From assembly GCF_014332515.1 (NCBI RefSeq), contig NZ_VFSD01000012.1, forward strand, positions 1 through 64,000: 64,000 bases of DNA, written 5' to 3'. The position numbers were made by a program, and so were the translations under genes. The notes beneath the pieces were generated by a model. The model saw only the letters and a list, made by a program, of their open reading frames with translations. It made no database searches and was not told the DNA's origin. Of the stretch, positions 33,684 to 42,767 are shown piece after piece (position 1 is the first letter of the stretch; every line of letters begins with the position of its first letter). Origin of the DNA: Pontibacter beigongshangensis. Its GTDB lineage: Bacteria > Bacteroidota > Bacteroidia > Cytophagales > Hymenobacteraceae.

Positions 33684-35591
33684 TTACTGGCCGCTACTGA
33701 GCAAGCCCATCGACTTTACCATGTTGATGAACTCCACCCGATACCCTTCCCGGTCTTTGCCTCTGGCTCCTTCGGCCAGTTGCAGCACCGAGGCATAAGA
33801 AGCACTGCCCTTGAACTCCGATTCGCGGAGCAGCATGCCAAAAGAAGCCACCGCAGCCGAAAACCTGAAATTATCGGAGGTGCGGCCGGCCGGCTCCAGC
33901 CCTTGCGGCACAGTGCGCTGCAGCAGGCTGCTCTTATCGCCATCTGGTTCTTTGTAGCGCAGCTTCAGGGTTAGCACTTCGTTGGAGTTGGCGGCCGTGG
34001 TGGTGGCAGGTGCCTGCTGGTACTTGAGCGCATCTACGACAGCGGGTATAGCGGCAGCAGAACGGGCTCCTACGGGCACGATCTCGTACAGAGCCGTTAC
34101 GGTGTGGCCGGAGCCCAGCTCGCCGGCGTCTTTTTTGTCGTTGTTGAAATCTTCGTTGCGCAACGCACGGTTTTCGTAACCGATCAGGCGGTAGGCATGC
34201 ACCTTGGCCGGGTTAAACTCCAGCTGCAGCTTCACGTCTTTGGCAATGGTGAACAGGGTGCCGCCAAACTCATTCACGAACACCTTCTTCGCCTCCAGCA
34301 GGTTGTCTATGTAGGCGTAGTTGCCGTTGCCTTTATCCGCGAGGGTTTCCATTTTGGAGTCTTTGTAGTTGCCCATGCCAAAGCCCAGTACCGTCAGGAA
34401 CACGCCCGACTCCCGCTTCTCCTCTATCAGGCGCTCCATCTCGGCATTGCTCGACACACCCACATTAAAATCGCCGTCGGTGGCCAGGATCACGCGGTTG
34501 TTGCCGCCTTTTATGAACTGCTGCTGCGCTATTTTATAGGCCAGCTTTATGCCTTCTCCTCCTGCCGTGGACCCTCCTGCATGCAGGTTATCGATAGCCT
34601 GCATAATCTTTGCTTTATTGTTTCCGGGAGTTGGGGCGAGTACCAGGCCGGCAGCTCCGGCATATACCACCATGGCTACCTTATCCTGGGGCCGCAGCTG
34701 CTCCACCAGCAATTTAAAGCCGGCTTTTACGAGTGGCAACTTGGCAGGCTCGTCCATAGAGCCCGACACATCTATCAGGAACACCAGGTTGGAGGCGGGC
34801 AGGTTCTCCAGCGGAATGTGGCGCCCCTGCAGGCCAATGTGCAGTAGCTGGTTTTCCTCGTTCCAGGGGCAGGCAGCAAGCTCCGTGGTAATCGAAAAGG
34901 GCTCCTTCCCTTCGGGTTGCGGGTAATCGTAAGAAAAATAATTGACCATCTCCTCTATTCTAACGGCGTCTTTAGGCGGCTTCTGCCCCATGCTCAGGAA
35001 GCGCCGCACATTGCTATAAGAGGCATTGTCTACATCGATAGAAAACGTGGAGAGTGGATTGCGGACAGCCACCAGAAAAGGATTCTCGTGCACGGCATCA
35101 TATTCTTCGGTGTTGAAGCTGGTATCCCCAACCGTTTCCCTATCATGTTTTATAACCGGGCTGGTATATTTTACGGCAGCCGGTGCACTCATCTGCATTT
35201 CGGTAACCGTGGCCAGTCGCGAAGCTTTTCCTTTCCGGGTCCCATACCCTGTTACCACTACTTCCTCCAGCGCCCTGTTATCCGGCTGCATTGCCACGTT
35301 TATGTTGGTGCGCGTCCCAATCTTTACTTCCTGGGTCTTAAAACCTATAAAGGAGAACACCAGCACGTTGCGGGAGGCTGGCACTACCAGTTTATACTGC
35401 CCGCTCTGATCGGTGGCCGTTCCTACCCGGGTGCCTTTCACGGTGATGGCAACACCAGGTAAAGGCTGCCCATCATCGGCTGCTGTTACTTTGCCTGTTA
35501 TAATTCTGTCCTGTGTCTGGAGGGCAAACACATAGGTACCAAGCATGAGGAGGCTTAGCACAAGGGCGAGCATATTAGCGTGTCTGATCAT
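33684..35591 (-). CDS. vWA-domain protein with SusC-like N-terminal domain (YfbK type)
   Basis: This 635-residue secreted protein (signal about 1-24) has a CarboxypepD_reg-like domain (about 29-101, ITGKVTAADDGQPLPGV) and a Ton-box-like EEVVVTGYGT (109-118). The YfbK-type region (about 165-265, NPLSTFSIDVDNASY, IEEMVNYFSYDYPQP) precedes a vWA domain with MIDAS motif DVSGSM (274-279) and an additional C-terminal DUF3520-like section. The function of this family is not established; binding through the MIDAS metal is expected. The gene is divergent from an ECF sigma factor by 200 bp, a common neighbourhood for regulated envelope proteins. The start is chosen for its immediate signal peptide. Confidence 0.85.
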   Translation of the reverse strand: MIRHANMLALVLSLLMLGTYVFALQTQDRIITGKVTAADDGQPLPGVAITVKGTRVGTATDQSGQYKLVVPASRNVLVFSFIGFKTQEVKIGTRTNINVAMQPDNRALEEVVVTGYGTRKGKASRLATVTEMQMSAPAAVKYTSPVIKHDRETVGDTSFNTEEYDAVHENPFLVAVRNPLSTFSIDVDNASYSNVRRFLSMGQKPPKDAVRIEEMVNYFSYDYPQPEGKEPFSITTELAACPWNEENQLLHIGLQGRHIPLENLPASNLVFLIDVSGSMDEPAKLPLVKAGFKLLVEQLRPQDKVAMVVYAGAAGLVLAPTPGNNKAKIMQAIDNLHAGGSTAGGEGIKLAYKIAQQQFIKGGNNRVILATDGDFNVGVSSNAEMERLIEEKRESGVFLTVLGFGMGNYKDSKMETLADKGNGNYAYIDNLLEAKKVFVNEFGGTLFTIAKDVKLQLEFNPAKVHAYRLIGYENRALRNEDFNNDKKDAGELGSGHTVTALYEIVPVGARSAAAIPAVVDALKYQQAPATTTAANSNEVLTLKLRYKEPDGDKSSLLQRTVPQGLEPAGRTSDNFRFSAAVASFGMLLRESEFKGSASYASVLQLAEGARGKDREGYRVEFINMVKSMGLLSSGQ

Positions 35592-35794
35592 AGTTTTATT
35601 TGTTAAGGTTTGTATAAGGATGCTGCATCAGGTGAATTTGCACATCCGCTTATGATTTTTCTTTTGAATAATTTTCGTTAGGTTAGGGCAGGGTTTAAGG
35701 CAGCTCTTGCCAAACAGCCCAAAAAATCCGTATTAGTGTAAAATTGCCTTCGCCTGGTAATATGCCGGCCCGAAGCGCTGCATTTTATAGCCCG

Positions 35795-36379
35795 ATGTTT
35801 CTAAAGCTTTTCTCCAAACCGACGCCCCCGAGCGACCTGGAGCTGGTGCACAAGTACCAGCAAACGGGCGACATGCGGGCCATGGGAGAACTGTTTGAGC
35901 GCTACACCGAAATGGTTTATCTCATCTGCCTGAAGTATCTGAAAGACGAGGATGACAGCAAAGACGCCACTATGCAGGTGTTTGAGAAACTGATAGAGCT
36001 GCTCAGGAAGCACCAGATAACTAATTTTAAGAGCTGGCTGCACGTAACCACCCGCAACCATTGCCTGCTGCAGCTCCGCGGCCGCAATGGCAAACAGGTT
36101 AGAGTGGATGACAAGACCGCTCTGCTTATGGAATCGACCTCCTTCCTGCATCTATTGGAGGAAGATCAGCAGGAGGCGGCCCTGCAGATTCTGGAAAAAG
36201 GATTGACAGAGCTTCCGCCTGAACAAAAAACCTGCCTCGAACTGTTTTACCTGCAGCAAAAGAGCTATAAAGAGATTGCCGCCATTACCGGAACCGACCT
36301 CCCCAAAGTGAAAAGCTATATACAGAACGGCCGAAGAAACCTGAAAATTTACCTGGAAAATCATCATGAGCAGCCATAA
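35795..36379 (+). CDS. ECF-type RNA polymerase sigma factor
   Basis: The start at 35795 (MFLKLFSKP) is preferred; an in-frame ATG at 35744 would add a 17-residue tail unusual for the family. The 194-residue protein has sigma region 2 (ELFERYTEMVYLICLKYLKDEDDSKDATMQVFEKL) and region 4 with a helix-turn-helix (LPPEQKTCLELFYLQQKSYKEIAAITG), with little between. It directs polymerase to a small regulon. The stop overlaps the start of the next gene by 14 bp, as is usual for a sigma/anti-sigma pair. Confidence 0.9.
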   Translation: MFLKLFSKPTPPSDLELVHKYQQTGDMRAMGELFERYTEMVYLICLKYLKDEDDSKDATMQVFEKLIELLRKHQITNFKSWLHVTTRNHCLLQLRGRNGKQVRVDDKTALLMESTSFLHLLEEDQQEAALQILEKGLTELPPEQKTCLELFYLQQKSYKEIAAITGTDLPKVKSYIQNGRRNLKIYLENHHEQP

Positions 36380-37655
36380 CAACCAACTAACCTGGGGAAC
36401 CGAAGAACACCCTACCCTGGAGGAGCTGCGCCAGTACCAGGAAGATGCCCTGCCTTCTGCCCTGAGCCAGGAGCTGGAGCAGCACCTGCTATCCTGTGAT
36501 GTCTGCACCGATGTGGTGGAGGGCATGATGCTGGCCGATCGTGCCAGCACCCGAAAGGCGGTGCACGCCATTAACTTCAGACTCCAGAACCTGAAACAGC
36601 CCAAAAAGAAGCGCCGGCTGCCGGCCATGCCTCTGCTCGATTGGCGTGCAGCTGCGGCCATAGTGGCATTACTCTGCTCGCTGGCGCTGGTTGTTTATTA
36701 CCAGTACACCCAGCTGGCCAAAGACCGGCCTGCTGCGGTAACTGTTGCAGAACAACCAGTTGAAATTTCTCCGGCTACGCCTGCTCCGGCATCAGAGGAG
36801 CTTACGCAGGAGGCTGTAGCTCCGCTGCCCGCCGCAGTTGAACCGGCACCTCCCCTTGCCACAGCCCGGCCACAGGCACGCACCAAGCCTACGCAGAGCA
36901 CAGCCCCACAGCCGCTGCACACCCTTATTTTTGAAGATGCTCCTGCCCTGGCAGAGGCAAATACAGACACTCAAACAGATAGCGCCGCCAGCCAACCCCC
37001 TGCCGCCAGCGGGAGCACACTCGCCGCAACTTCAGCAAGAGCAGCAGCCAGCAGACTGGCAAAAGCTCCTGAGAGCAGAAAAATAACCGGCAAAGTACTG
37101 TCGGAAAGTGGAGAAGGTCTGCCTGGAGTAACCGTGGTGATTAAAGGTGCCAATACCGGCGCTTCTACCGATGTAAATGGTCATTTTACCTTGCCTGCAC
37201 CCGCCGAGAGCGGCACCCTTGTGTTCAACTACATTGGCTACGAGCCTGCCGAGACTACCGTTGGGCCCGGCACCAGCATGGTGCAGGTTAATCTGTTCCC
37301 CAGCGCCAGCGCCCTGAACGAGGTGGTTGTAGTTGGCTACGGAACTGCCCGCGCCGCCGAAGCAGCAGCCCCCAGCCCTGTTGGAGGCACCAGAGCTTTC
37401 AACAAATACATCAAAGAAAATTTACGATACCCTGATGCAGCCAGAGAAGGCAGCGTAAAGGGCAAGGTAGAAGTGGCATTTACCGTTACGCCTGCCGGAC
37501 TACCAGGCAATCTCCGGATATTGAAGAGCCTGCACCCTGCCTGCGATGCCGAGGCAATACGCCTGGTAAAAGAAGGCCCCTCCTGGAAGCCAGCCACCAT
37601 CAACGGCAGTCCTGTTTCACAGGAGGTAAAAGTCTCGATTCGGTTTAAGCCGTAG
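36366..37655 (+). CDS. anti-sigma-like membrane protein fused to SusC-like and TonB C-terminal domains
   Basis: This 429-residue protein begins with a zinc-binding anti-sigma-like segment HxxxCxxC (His40, Cys44, Cys47). It crosses the membrane once (about 92-113). A Pro/Ala-rich periplasmic linker (about 120-235) is followed by a CarboxypepD_reg-like domain (about 239-311, GEGLPGVTVVIKG), a Ton-box-like NEVVVVGYG (318-326) and a TonB C-terminal domain (about 343-429, KYIKENLRYPDAAREGSVKGKVEVAFTV). Sequestering the overlapping sigma factor in the cytosol is the expected role of the head. The tail could read or energise an outer-membrane receptor. This fusion is unusual, and the mechanism is an inference. 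Confidence 0.85.
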   Translation: MSSHNNQLTWGTEEHPTLEELRQYQEDALPSALSQELEQHLLSCDVCTDVVEGMMLADRASTRKAVHAINFRLQNLKQPKKKRRLPAMPLLDWRAAAAIVALLCSLALVVYYQYTQLAKDRPAAVTVAEQPVEISPATPAPASEELTQEAVAPLPAAVEPAPPLATARPQARTKPTQSTAPQPLHTLIFEDAPALAEANTDTQTDSAASQPPAASGSTLAATSARAAASRLAKAPESRKITGKVLSESGEGLPGVTVVIKGANTGASTDVNGHFTLPAPAESGTLVFNYIGYEPAETTVGPGTSMVQVNLFPSASALNEVVVVGYGTARAAEAAAPSPVGGTRAFNKYIKENLRYPDAAREGSVKGKVEVAFTVTPAGLPGNLRILKSLHPACDAEAIRLVKEGPSWKPATINGSPVSQEVKVSIRFKP

Positions 37656-37946: not shown

Positions 37947-39608
37947 TTAGTACCCAGGATTCTGTGGAACATCTGCATTGTTTAGGAGCAGCACAGTTGC
38001 TGGAATAGGGCGAAGTATTTTAAAAGCACCATCCTGCCCCTGAAACGGATCGAACCCGCGGTTGTACCAGTTTCTGATGTCTCGGTTATAGAGACGCGTG
38101 CGCTCCATCAAGGTGCCGGTACGCTTCAGGTCGAACCACCGGTGATACTCGCCAGCCAGTTCACGCGCTCTTTCATCAAGAATAAAGTCAATAGTTACAT
38201 CGGCAGGTTCAATTCGCATGGCCTCTTCGGCACCCGGTTTGGCAGCTCTTCTTCTTACCTCGTTAATGCGGGCGGCTGCTGTTCCGTTATCGCCTAACTT
38301 AAAATAAGCCTCTGCTGCAATCAGGTATGTTTCGCCCAGGCGTGCCAGGAAAATGTCGCGGGTACTGGTGGCACCTCCAAACACAGACTTAGGATCATCG
38401 AACTTCTTAATGGCAGGCGTGGCATTATCGAGGGCAGTGCTGTTATTGGCTTCCCAGGCCGGAGAATAAGGTATAACCTGTGCTCCGTTGCGTCGGTCAG
38501 GGTTTGCTGCCTTCCAGGCTGCAATGGCCTCAGGAGAGTTAGCCCATTTTGGTGCGTAGTAGAAGCGTACGTTCAATGTGTTGCGCTCCGTGCTCTTATC
38601 ATAATAGTCGTAATAGCGTTGGTAGAACTCTATCATGAACGTGGCATCGAATCGGGCATCATTTTCTGTAAACACATCGAAGGTATACATGGTTGGCACC
38701 AGGCGGTAGGCACGCTGCGGATAGCCTTGCGCTGCTCCCTGGCCACCCATATAGGGTCCGTACCAGTAGTTTTGGCTGTTACCTGTGCTCTGGGGGTTAG
38801 CCACTGATCCGGCATCGTACTGTATGGAAAACAGGATCTCAGGGTTGCGCTCGTTGCCAGGGAAAAACAGTTGCTCGAAAGACTGGCTCAGCGCCTGGCC
38901 AGCAATGGCAGCATCGGCAAACTGGGCAGCCTTGGCAAAATCGTCGGGGGCGGCAAAGCTTTCGTAGCCACGGGTTAGATGTGCTTTGGCCAGGTAGTGG
39001 CGCACGGCGCGCTTGGTAACACGGCCAAACTCAGTTGTAGTTTCCGGCACTAGTTCCAGCGCCTCGTTCATCTGGTTTATGATAAACGTATACACTTCCT
39101 GGGCCGAATTTCGTGGGAAAGCATCTACCGGGGCAGAAAAGCGATCGGTCACCAATGGCACGCCACCAAACTGTTGTACCAGCAGGAAATAATGGTATGC
39201 CCGCAAAAACTGTACTTCTCCCTTTCTGGTGGCAATAGTTGCCGAAGGTGCTGTTAGTTCGTTAAAATAGAGCGCGTTGTTGCAAACCTGAATACCGGCA
39301 TATACCCTACGATAGAAGTTTAAGATATCGGCATCTTCGGGGTTTAACTCACGATACTCGCTTATGCCCTTTGGCTGGGCATCCCGGCCCTCCACATACA
39401 TGTCTGTGCCTGCGGCAAATACCCAGGGGTCTGTGTACACAGGCCGTAGCGAAGCATACGAAGCATTCACAATTCTTTCATACCCTTCTGCCGTTGTGAA
39501 ATAGGCATCGGCCTCTATGTTGGATCTATTCTCCTCTTCCAGAAAATCATTGCAGCCTGCCAGAACAACTACTGCCACTAGCAGACTTAGTATATTAAAC
39601 TTCTTCAT
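37947..39608 (-). CDS. SusD-like surface glycan-binding lipoprotein (pair 2)
   Basis: This 553-residue RagB/SusD protein has a lipobox LAGC (Cys19). Family features include YFTTAEGYERIVNASYASLRP near the start, VQFLRAYHYFLLVQQFGGVPLVTD (about 130-155), the helical LGETYLIAAEAYFKLGD (about 415) and a C-terminal RARELAGEYHRWFDLKRTG. It lies 9 bp downstream of susC2 on the minus strand and would be its binding cap. It differs from SusD1 in most of the sequence, which suggests a distinct ligand, perhaps a shorter or differently decorated rhamnogalacturonan fragment. Confidence 0.95.
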   Translation of the reverse strand: MKKFNILSLLVAVVVLAGCNDFLEEENRSNIEADAYFTTAEGYERIVNASYASLRPVYTDPWVFAAGTDMYVEGRDAQPKGISEYRELNPEDADILNFYRRVYAGIQVCNNALYFNELTAPSATIATRKGEVQFLRAYHYFLLVQQFGGVPLVTDRFSAPVDAFPRNSAQEVYTFIINQMNEALELVPETTTEFGRVTKRAVRHYLAKAHLTRGYESFAAPDDFAKAAQFADAAIAGQALSQSFEQLFFPGNERNPEILFSIQYDAGSVANPQSTGNSQNYWYGPYMGGQGAAQGYPQRAYRLVPTMYTFDVFTENDARFDATFMIEFYQRYYDYYDKSTERNTLNVRFYYAPKWANSPEAIAAWKAANPDRRNGAQVIPYSPAWEANNSTALDNATPAIKKFDDPKSVFGGATSTRDIFLARLGETYLIAAEAYFKLGDNGTAAARINEVRRRAAKPGAEEAMRIEPADVTIDFILDERARELAGEYHRWFDLKRTGTLMERTRLYNRDIRNWYNRGFDPFQGQDGAFKILRPIPATVLLLNNADVPQNPGY

Positions 39609-39617
39609 TTCTTTAGA

Positions 39618-42600
39618 TTAAAATTTAACGTTAACACCAAACTGATAAACAATAGAGCTAGGGCCTGTGTTGTTCAGATTACCGTTTGTATTGTTCCTTA
39701 TAGTGGTAGTAGTCGGGTCTAAGCCAGCGGCATATTCCGGATCAAAGCCATCATAATCAGTGAAGACAAAGGGGTTCAAGATATTGGTGTAGATACGGAG
39801 GCCCTTAAGGCGCACACGCTCCAGCAAGGCTGCCGGCAGGCTGTAGCCTAACGATATGTTCTGCACTTTAAAGAACGAAGCATCTTTATAATACCCTACC
39901 AGACTCCAATAATCACCTGGCCGGCCGGGCAGCGGATACGAGTTAGAGGCTCTTGTTGGAGTTACATTGTTTGGCGACATATAGTAGTCTACATCCAGTT
40001 TATTACGGCCCCGGTCTGCCATGTTCGTAAATTCGGCATGGAACGGGCTATACACCTGGTGCCCCTGCCGGCCGAACAGAGAAGCAGACAGATCAAAGTT
40101 CAGGAAAGTTACCTGAGTAGAGAAACCTCCTACCCATTTCGGATCTTTCTGGCCAATTACTGCTCGGTCTTCGTTGTTGATAACCTGGTTGTTATCGATG
40201 TCCACTACCTTGGCCTGGCCTGGGATCTGGCGATACACTTCTGCCTGATCCCGCTCATTCTCCTGCCAGATACCATCGAAGATATAAGTATAGTTTACAT
40301 TTATGGGTTGTCCTATAAACCAGGCATCACCCCGCATATCTTCCTTGCCTGACAAGAGCTCTACAATTTCGTTTTTGTTTCTGGAGAAATTAAAGGTTGT
40401 TGTCCAGGTAAGCCTTCCGGTAGATACGTTAACTGTTCGCAAGGATAATTCCACACCCTTGTTCTTCACAGAGGCGACGTTGTCTATAACATCAGGATAT
40501 CCATTCTCTAGTGCAATCTGTCTTCTAAGTATCAACCCTTCCGAAAGCTTATTATAAACATCGACACTTCCCGTAATTCTGTTGTTCAGAAAGCCATAAT
40601 CCAGCCCAAGATTTAACTCTCGGGTTCGCTCCCATGTTAGCGAAGGGTTTGGCAGTTGATTTGGCGTGTAGCCCAAAGCCAACGCACCACCAAAGTCGTA
40701 GAAGGTAGGACTACTGAGGTTCATTTGAGTACCATATGGGTTTACGTTGTTGTTGTTACCGGAATAGCCTAAGCTAACTCTGGCCTTCAGATCAGACACA
40801 AAGCCCATATCCTGCATAAAATTCTCCTGCGATATTCTCCAGCCCAATGCCACTGATGGGAAAGATGCCCATTTATTTCCGGGAGACAGTTTAGAAGAAC
40901 CATCCCAGCGACTGGCCAATGTAACCAGATACCTATCTTTAAAGGCATAGTTTATCCTGGCCATGAAAGACAAAATAGTGAACTCACTGTACCCACTGGT
41001 GGAGCGCTCCCGTAAGGAGGCAGTTTCGAGGTTGTTGAAGGAAGAGTTAAAAGGTAAACCGCTTACCCTGTTAAAACTTGTCTCAGACTGATCCCGCTGC
41101 ATGCTGTGCAAGCCTGTAAAGGTAAAACTGTGCTCGTTTATCTCTTTGCGGGCAGTAATGATGTTGTCCATAATGTAGGAGAAGTTTTCTGACCGCGTGA
41201 GCTCAGCAGCCCCGGCCTGTAAACCGCGCGATTCCGTCATGGGTCCCCAGTAGCGCCCTTGCCTGGAAAACGATACACTTGGCGAAAAGGTAGAGCGCAG
41301 ATCGAGCCAGGATACCGGAGAGTATTGTAGATACAGGTTACCAACCCCGAAGTATCTCCTCGAATTGTTAACCGAGTTGGCATTATCTACCAACGGGTTC
41401 ACGGAACTGGTCATACTGGTAACGTTGGTCGTTCCCGGAATCGGAATCTGCCCTGGCCGGAATACCAGGTTGCCCTCGGCATCGTAAGGCGAGAAGATAG
41501 GGGCCATCCGGAAGGCATTGGTTACGGCCAGGTCGCTGCCGCGTTCAATCTCGGAAAGGGAGAAGTTAAAGTTTACGCCGGCAGCCCATTTTTCACTTAT
41601 TTTATGGTCTACGCTGGCCTTAAAGTTGTAGCGCTCAAAGTTATCGTTTATGAAGTTGCCTTTCTCGTTCTGGTAGCCTGCGCCGATTACATACTGCATG
41701 TTATTTTCGCTCATGCCGGCCACGGTCAGCCAGTGGTTGTTTTGCTTGCCAGTCTGCAACACCTGGTCGCGCCAGTTGGTGTACTTTTTCTCGGCAAGGA
41801 TCTGCGCCACGGCAGGGTTTTCGGCACCACCAATGGTGCTCGGGTAGTTGTTGTTGCCGGCAATTAGCTCCGGCACGATATAGGCATTCTGACGAAATTC
41901 CCACCATTGGTCGCCCTCCATAAAATCGGGCATGCGGGCCACCTGCCGGATACCGGTATAGCCGTCATACGAAATACTAGTGCCGCCTTTTACGCCGGTG
42001 CCTTGTTTGGTCGTAACGATCACCACCCCATTAGAACCACGCGAGCCATAAACTGCAGTAGAGGCCGCATCTTTCAGCACGTCCATTTTGGCAATGTCCT
42101 GTGGGTTCAGAAAGTTGATGTCCGGTACAATCACCCCATCTACCACATAGAGCGGCTGTGCATTGGTTAACGAGTTCTGCCCGCGTATCTGCACACTAAA
42201 ATTAGAGCCAGCCCTGCCGGAGCCGGAAGAAATATCGACACCGGCTACCTGCCCCTGCACCCCCTGCAGCGGGTTTACCGTGCCGCGCTCTGCAATGGCC
42301 TCACCGGCCACACTACCTACCGCCACCGAAACATCTGCTTTGTTCTGGGTACCATAGCCCACTACCACCACTTCTTTCAGCGCTTTTACATCGGGGGCCA
42401 TGGTTATATTAATAGTGGAGCGGTTGCGAACCGGAACCTCCTGCGGGGTGTATCCTACATAGGAAATCACCAGCACGGCATTCTGATTCGGCACTGCCAG
42501 TTGGAAATTACCGTCTAAATCGGTCGTGGTTCCCTGGGTGGTTCCTTTAATCTGAATAGCCACACCCGGCAACCCTTCGTTATTATCGCCAACAACCCTG

Positions 42601-42767
42601 CCCGAAACCGTTACACCAGATTGCTTAATGGAGTTGTCGAGGCGCAGGTTAAGGCTGGCATCGCTTGTTTCCCAGGCATATGCTGCAGCCTGGGTGCTTT
42701 GGGGGGCAAGCCCGAGCAGGGGCAGCGCCAAAAGCATGTATTGCGCATAGTGTACTCTTTTTTTCAT
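39618..42767 (-). CDS. SusC-like TonB-dependent receptor (pair 2)
   Basis: This 1049-residue protein has a signal (about 1-29), a CarboxypepD_reg-like domain (about 54-124, GRVVGDNNEGLPGV), a Ton box EVVVVGYGT (132-140), a plug domain with PLYVVDGVIVPD and KMDVLKDAASTAVYGSRGSNGVV, and a barrel ending in FGVNVKF. The N-terminal 130 residues are nearly the same design as SusC1. Three to four tandem CAGG-type operator units sit about 250 bp upstream, the strongest array in the window. Confidence 0.95.
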   Translation of the reverse strand: MKKRVHYAQYMLLALPLLGLAPQSTQAAAYAWETSDASLNLRLDNSIKQSGVTVSGRVVGDNNEGLPGVAIQIKGTTQGTTTDLDGNFQLAVPNQNAVLVISYVGYTPQEVPVRNRSTINITMAPDVKALKEVVVVGYGTQNKADVSVAVGSVAGEAIAERGTVNPLQGVQGQVAGVDISSGSGRAGSNFSVQIRGQNSLTNAQPLYVVDGVIVPDINFLNPQDIAKMDVLKDAASTAVYGSRGSNGVVIVTTKQGTGVKGGTSISYDGYTGIRQVARMPDFMEGDQWWEFRQNAYIVPELIAGNNNYPSTIGGAENPAVAQILAEKKYTNWRDQVLQTGKQNNHWLTVAGMSENNMQYVIGAGYQNEKGNFINDNFERYNFKASVDHKISEKWAAGVNFNFSLSEIERGSDLAVTNAFRMAPIFSPYDAEGNLVFRPGQIPIPGTTNVTSMTSSVNPLVDNANSVNNSRRYFGVGNLYLQYSPVSWLDLRSTFSPSVSFSRQGRYWGPMTESRGLQAGAAELTRSENFSYIMDNIITARKEINEHSFTFTGLHSMQRDQSETSFNRVSGLPFNSSFNNLETASLRERSTSGYSEFTILSFMARINYAFKDRYLVTLASRWDGSSKLSPGNKWASFPSVALGWRISQENFMQDMGFVSDLKARVSLGYSGNNNNVNPYGTQMNLSSPTFYDFGGALALGYTPNQLPNPSLTWERTRELNLGLDYGFLNNRITGSVDVYNKLSEGLILRRQIALENGYPDVIDNVASVKNKGVELSLRTVNVSTGRLTWTTTFNFSRNKNEIVELLSGKEDMRGDAWFIGQPINVNYTYIFDGIWQENERDQAEVYRQIPGQAKVVDIDNNQVINNEDRAVIGQKDPKWVGGFSTQVTFLNFDLSASLFGRQGHQVYSPFHAEFTNMADRGRNKLDVDYYMSPNNVTPTRASNSYPLPGRPGDYWSLVGYYKDASFFKVQNISLGYSLPAALLERVRLKGLRIYTNILNPFVFTDYDGFDPEYAAGLDPTTTTIRNNTNGNLNNTGPSSIVYQFGVNVKF

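Follow-up and report, generated by a model that had tools for sequence, protein, structure and literature searches.

An ECF sigma/anti-sigma module of Bacteroidota whose anti-sigma factor contains a SusC-type NTE, a Ton box and a TonB C-terminal domain

The 64,000-nucleotide stretch of the Pontibacter beigongshangensis genome analysed here (contig NZ_VFSD01000012.1, positions 1 to 64,000; hereafter, the window) encodes an anti-sigma factor that combines, in a single chain, a cytosolic head, one membrane helix, a SusC-type NTE with a Ton box, and a TonB C-terminal domain (TonB_C). Its gene is accompanied by an ECF sigma gene and by a divergent gene of a vWA protein, which has an NTE-like domain and a Ton box of its own. 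We propose, with a probability of about 0.55, that these genes constitute a three-gene envelope-signalling ECF system that reuses TonB/Ton-box recognition and couples the release of the sigma factor to the condition of the Ton machinery. There is good support for the existence of the module and for its self-regulation, whereas we infer the binding step and the direction of the signal. In related bacteria, a switch of this kind appears to govern tonB and exbD, which suggests surveillance by the cell of its own apparatus for nutrient uptake.

The sigma/anti-sigma pair and the parts of the anti-sigma protein are as follows:

35795..36379, forward strand: ECF sigma gene, 194 aa from ATG 35795, with Sigma70_r2 and r4_2
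36366..37655, forward strand: anti-sigma gene with periplasmic SusC-type NTE, Ton box and TonB_C (429-aa ORF; Pfam, NCBIfam, AlphaFold2)
36483..36506, forward strand: H40-x3-C44-x2-C47 of the anti-sigma head (invariant in 45 homologues; zf-HC2 sub-threshold)
36636..36722, forward strand: the one transmembrane helix, residues 91-119 (AlphaFold2 secondary structure)
37083..37331, forward strand: CarbopepD_reg_2 / SusC NTE-like domain, residues 240-322 (Pfam 6e-19; Foldseek 9hfj)
37317..37343, forward strand: Ton-box-like NEVVVVGYG, residues 318-326 (sequence; SusC model span 238-331; 321-328 predicted disordered)
37419..37649, forward strand: TonB_C domain, residues 352-428 (Pfam 4e-17; Foldseek 6i97_D)

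The sigma factor, which comprises regions 2 and 4 only, likely starts at ATG 35795, because its close relatives open with MFLKLFSK. The first-pass annotation, made from the letters of the window alone, had read the downstream protein as an HxxxCxxC head, one helix, a CarboxypepD_reg domain with NEVVVVGYG and a TonB C-domain in one chain, and this reading was borne out by Pfam, NCBIfam and AlphaFold2. The 14-bp overlap that it reported between the two genes is also correct, since the sigma ORF ends at 36379 and the anti-sigma ORF starts at 36366. In profile searches for the single domains, both CarbopepD_reg_2 and TonB_C exceeded their Pfam cut-offs, but the zf-HC2 match at residues 23-47, with 14.8 bits vs. 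a curated cut-off of 22.2, stayed below the threshold and is suggestive. In NCBIfam, residues 238-331, which cover the NTE and the Ton box, correspond to positions 1-92 of the 981 positions of the SusC/RagA model (1e-28), and the TonB C-terminus model also matches the protein (3e-10). The H40-x3-C44-x2-C47 motif is unchanged across the 45 family homologues, and is absent from some anti-sigma factors outside this family. In the same 45 proteins, residues E319-V320-V321 are at least 90% conserved; the strict Ton-box pattern is present in 22 of them, GYG being missing in several homologues. Because the fusion architecture is conserved among relatives, it is no product of chance. In two genomes (L102 and L114), the anti-sigma gene is represented by two ORFs, one for the head and one for the NTE-TonB_C part, which may reflect a split, a frameshift or a sequencing error.

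The AlphaFold2 model presents a single-pass protein, encoded together with its ECF sigma factor, in which a cytosolic helical head and the helix 91-119 are followed by a long disordered linker and by two separate beta domains with pLDDT above 90, in line with the independent folding expected of them from the first inspection. The matches of these domains in Foldseek are the SusC NTE (9hfj) and Ton-box-bound TonB (6i97). Residues 321-328 of the box are disordered in the model and lie between the two beta domains. That the Ton box docks on TonB_C within the same molecule is not supported by the model, in which the box is disordered, although with an alignment of 45 rows such docking may still occur. 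For a SusC NTE, NMR showed the Ton box to be flexible, and its DEVVV box is essential for transport (PMC7782687).

The third gene of the module is transcribed divergently from the sigma gene:

33684..35591, reverse strand: exported vWA/YfbK-type protein with an NTE-like domain and a Ton box (Pfam, alignment, model)
35241..35267, reverse strand: Ton-box-like EEVVVTGYG of this protein, residues 109-117 (sequence; 108-168 predicted disordered)

The CarboxypepD_reg domain and EEVVVTGYGT ascribed to this protein earlier were confirmed (Pfam CarbopepD_reg_2, 1e-21), and VWA and YfbK_C domains were found in addition. The strict Ton-box pattern occurs in 19 of 33 vWA proteins. In the models, the Ton boxes of both the anti-sigma and the vWA protein are predicted to be disordered and free, and TonB_C is well folded. 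The tendency of GYG to be missing from both boxes together (15/4/5/9, Fisher p 0.029) was set aside as too weak given the relatedness of the proteins, the table having been made by eye with one variant counted by hand. The anti-sigma gene is directly followed, on the opposite strand, by a SusD/SusC pair (37947-42767).

We read the sigma/anti-sigma pair in 48 loci within its own bacterial family, the closest named relative being Pontibacter qinzhouensis, and the gene order (sigma, anti-sigma overlapping it by 14 bp, divergent vWA) is kept in these family loci; in 41 of the 48, the vWA gene was present as well, its product having an NTE and an EVVV box. A phylum-wide survey of YfbK-type vWA genes found this gene trio in further families within the order and the class, and the fused anti-sigma also occurs in additional families of the order. 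The survey for the same fusion that had been suggested at the outset yielded 48 family loci, more families of the order and cases beyond it, which supports the view that the anti-sigma/TonB_C fusion is real and old. In certain other Bacteroidota, a single chain encoded behind the sigma gene contains both partners: a zf-HC2 head (2e-7, 31.4 bits), an NTE, a plug-like segment and a vWA domain in L157, and an anti-sigma region, an NTE and a vWA domain in L172 and L187, the latter also with a Plug domain. In L170 and L196, the vWA protein is separate and bears an NTE, a Ton box and a Plug. As those bacteria make the anti-sigma region and the vWA domain as a single protein, there is strong evidence that the two would act together, and the suggestion of the first-pass annotation that they may interact gains from both these fusions and the 41 family loci. 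Between the sigma and vWA genes of L170 (6845-7807), L196 (6438-7358) and L194 (3683-4588), ORFs of about 300 aa were noticed, which end plug-like (LYIIDG...YGEKGKKGVVVI), have no Pfam call and are probably anti-sigma factors.

An alignment of the regions upstream of the vWA genes revealed a promoter-like motif, TGGAA-N14-GCATC in the vWA sense, which is perfect in 25 of 32 loci vs. 0.03% of shuffled sequences. A genome search with the pattern TRTGGAAW-N13-GCATC surfaced a second copy at the same loci:

35619..35644, reverse strand: ECF-type promoter-like site, TGTGCAAATTCACCTGATGCAGCATC, with 1 mismatch to the consensus, 27 bp upstream of the vWA gene (motif in 25/32 loci)
36127..36152, forward strand: second motif copy, TATGGAATCGACCTCCTTCCTGCATC, within the sigma gene, 213 bp upstream of the anti-sigma gene (perfect match; codon constraint)

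In the copy within the sigma gene, the residues between the boxes are variable, but all 44 of 44 Glu codons are GAA, and all 48 of 48 His codons are CAT and are followed by C, CAT being kept even in GC-rich genomes where this codon is rare. The fixed codons and base indicate selection at the DNA level. Most simply, the site would be a promoter within the sigma gene that serves the anti-sigma gene. Other families of the order and class likewise have the two copies (L158, L159, L166, L171, L177), and the motif is absent from the loci with the vWA-fused type of anti-sigma. Judged from co-occurrence only, the sigma factor of the module may be the one that reads TRTGGAAW-N13-GCATC.

Further sites were found elsewhere in the genomes of relatives. 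The 50 genomes of the genus contain 117 perfect sites vs. 15 for the reversed control, with a mean of 3.0 sites per genome with the module and of 0.33 per genome without it, the latter equal to the control rate of 0.30, and the 27 other genomes of the family contain 137 sites vs. 6. The targets recur with differing spacers and include exbD (L204, L210, L227, L229, L230) and tonB (L253-256, L263, L264, L274, L300), as well as genes of MazG, DUF4349 and MG2 proteins. Barrel-less proteins with an NTE, a Ton box or a Plug are also among them (L207, L311, L318, that of L318 being a membrane NTE protein). The window's own genome has, with the refined pattern, the two in-locus sites only, and a Ton regulon there would therefore be assumed by analogy with relatives; its one-mismatch list (22 sites vs. 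7 for the control) includes neither tonB nor exbD, and exbD has a two-mismatch site at best. Certain tonB and exbD sites come from genomes that also bear a paralogous sigma factor with a short anti-sigma, so that this paralogue may be the reader of the motif there; in the source genomes of L210, L229 and L230, the short-type paralogue was not found.

Paralogous modules lie beside the genes of the Ton machinery itself. In G003 and G014, two genomes of one sister genus, a second sigma/anti-sigma pair has the layout of the module with tonB replacing the vWA gene, and its anti-sigma consists of the head, the helix and TonB_C, without an NTE:

L274:161-2463 and L300:561-2853: second sigma/anti-sigma (TonB_C, without NTE) pair divergent from tonB, which the motif precedes

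A third pair, whose short anti-sigma has a partial NTE, adjoins exbD in part of the genus. The promoter-like motif, the link to tonB and exbD, and the paralogous modules are new here and had been missed by the first-pass annotation.

ECF sigma factors are held by membrane anti-sigma factors, and TonB_C binds Ton boxes through strand addition. In the mechanism that we propose, the sigma factor would transcribe the vWA gene and the gene of its own anti-sigma, thereby creating negative feedback, and, in relatives, also parts of the Ton machinery. The TonB_C of the anti-sigma would bind exposed Ton boxes (those of the vWA protein, other Ton-box proteins or receptors) in competition with real TonB, its occupancy would set whether the head holds or frees the sigma factor, and the system would tune the Ton machinery and the Ton-box clients to demand. 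A wider idea, which we hold tentatively and at somewhat less than even odds, is that of an ECF family whose anti-sigma factors carry a domain copy of the machine that they regulate: TonB_C with NTE and Ton box beside the vWA gene, TonB_C alone beside tonB, and a partial NTE beside exbD. Such a family would be dedicated to the homeostasis of the Ton machinery and barrel-less Ton-box proteins, its sigma activity reading the occupancy of TonB and Ton boxes.

The first-pass annotation proposed that an outer-membrane receptor may act through this one protein on the sigma factor. Classical cell-surface signalling of this kind, in which a SusC-type receptor (e.g., 39618-42767) would pull or displace the anti-sigma as FecA does on FecR, is in our opinion unlikely. 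The neighbouring SusC does have an NTE and KEVVVVGYG, and the TonB_C fold does resemble Ton-box-bound TonB; however, in the relatives read, the module was not seen together with the SusC/SusD pair, and its constant neighbour is the gene of the barrel-less Ton-box vWA protein. Of the earlier claim, the fusion stands, and the contact with a receptor would be conjectural. The Fec and Has systems (FecI/FecR/FecA, HasI/HasS/HasR; PMC9249621) share with the window module an ECF sigma, a single-pass anti-sigma with a periplasmic part and a link to TonB-dependent transport, and the has operon includes the TonB paralogue hasB (PMC9249621). In those systems, a FecR-type periplasmic domain is met by an additional signalling domain that belongs to the receptor, whereas the window anti-sigma itself bears the NTE, the Ton box and TonB_C, its conserved partner is a vWA protein, and neither Pfam nor NCBIfam gave it a match to the FecR periplasmic domain at E-values up to 0.1.

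It is also rather improbable that the NTE and TonB_C are inert spacers, the Ton boxes relics, and the sigma factor freed by proteolysis in general envelope stress. Such an explanation would accord with the presence of NTE domains in many non-receptor proteins of the phylum, with the part of the family that has no GYG, and with the MG2-, DUF4139- and DUF4349-type envelope proteins among the motif targets, but TonB_C stays where the NTE has been lost (L106, L174, L274, L300), E-V-V is kept, and tonB and exbD are among the targets. That the fusion, besides being an anti-sigma, works as a TonB coupled to ExbB/ExbD is very improbable, since, despite a TonB_C above the Pfam cut-off and the motif upstream of exbD in relatives, the RNKxYGAYxLR N-terminus is absent, the locus is without ExbB/ExbD, and the anti-sigma TonB_C domains split from those of energiser TonBs with support 100/98 in a tree on only 92 columns.

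Bacteroidota TonB energy transducers (L123 and others) have the same TonB_C fold as the window protein but differ from it in the N-terminus, the ExbB/ExbD coupling motif and the tree branch. The genome's own TonB starts with a segment containing NLDDIVFAGRNKVYGAYLLRKLY and its gene adjoins that of ExbD, while the phylum-type TonB N-terminus/membrane segment was not found in the window protein. Because this segment and ExbB/ExbD are missing and its branch is separate, TonB_C in the anti-sigma can be read as a putative binding module and no part of a motor. The Dma anti-sigma factors, described in Bacteroidota only, are likewise single chains with a cytosolic sigma-binding head, a helix, a long disordered tether and an envelope domain, but their C-terminus is an outer-membrane beta-barrel (PMC13088901), and that of the window protein is TonB_C, with an NTE. 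SusC has the same NTE followed by the same flexible box (PMC7782687); in the window module, the NTE is instead joined to an anti-sigma or a vWA domain, and neither plug nor barrel was found in the anti-sigma, its match to the SusC model being limited to the first 92 positions. The window protein fails the defining features of the FecR, Dma, TonB and SusC families. Its vWA partner shares the vWF_A, VWA and YfbK_C domains with YfbK/vWA proteins but adds an NTE and a Ton box, and shares its locus with a sigma/anti-sigma pair. Our literature search, of incomplete coverage, found no description of an anti-sigma/NTE/TonB_C fusion.

A sigma/anti-sigma pair assembled from pieces of TonB and its receptors, together with a promoter motif that can be read and in relatives points to tonB and exbD, makes it possible to test directly how bacteria adjust the supply of TonB to numerous TonB-dependent receptors; in the window's genome, dozens of SusC-like N-termini were matched. 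Barrel-less Ton-box proteins, such as the vWA and DUF4139 proteins and the stand-alone Plug, represent possible TonB clients of a class that is seldom considered.

Several minor observations concern proteins of this class and the motif. The L207 product (3-1481) is a barrel-less protein of the DUF4139/DUF4140 type that has a CarboxypepD_reg insertion and SEVVVTGYG; the motif lies just upstream of its gene, and the protein is possibly a TonB client. The gene L311:1982-2323, also preceded by the motif, encodes a small exported protein that consists in essence of a stand-alone receptor Plug segment (Pfam 3e-7). Linker phrases similar to the SusC plug (LxGKVAGVxIRGxSS) occur in L088, L091, L095 and other relatives of the vWA and anti-sigma proteins, upstream of the NTE in the anti-sigma and downstream of the box in the vWA protein. 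In several genomes of the genus, a MazG pyrophosphohydrolase gene with the motif (L253:8398-9204; L254) shares its strand with tonB, the motif being some 4.5 kb ahead of tonB.
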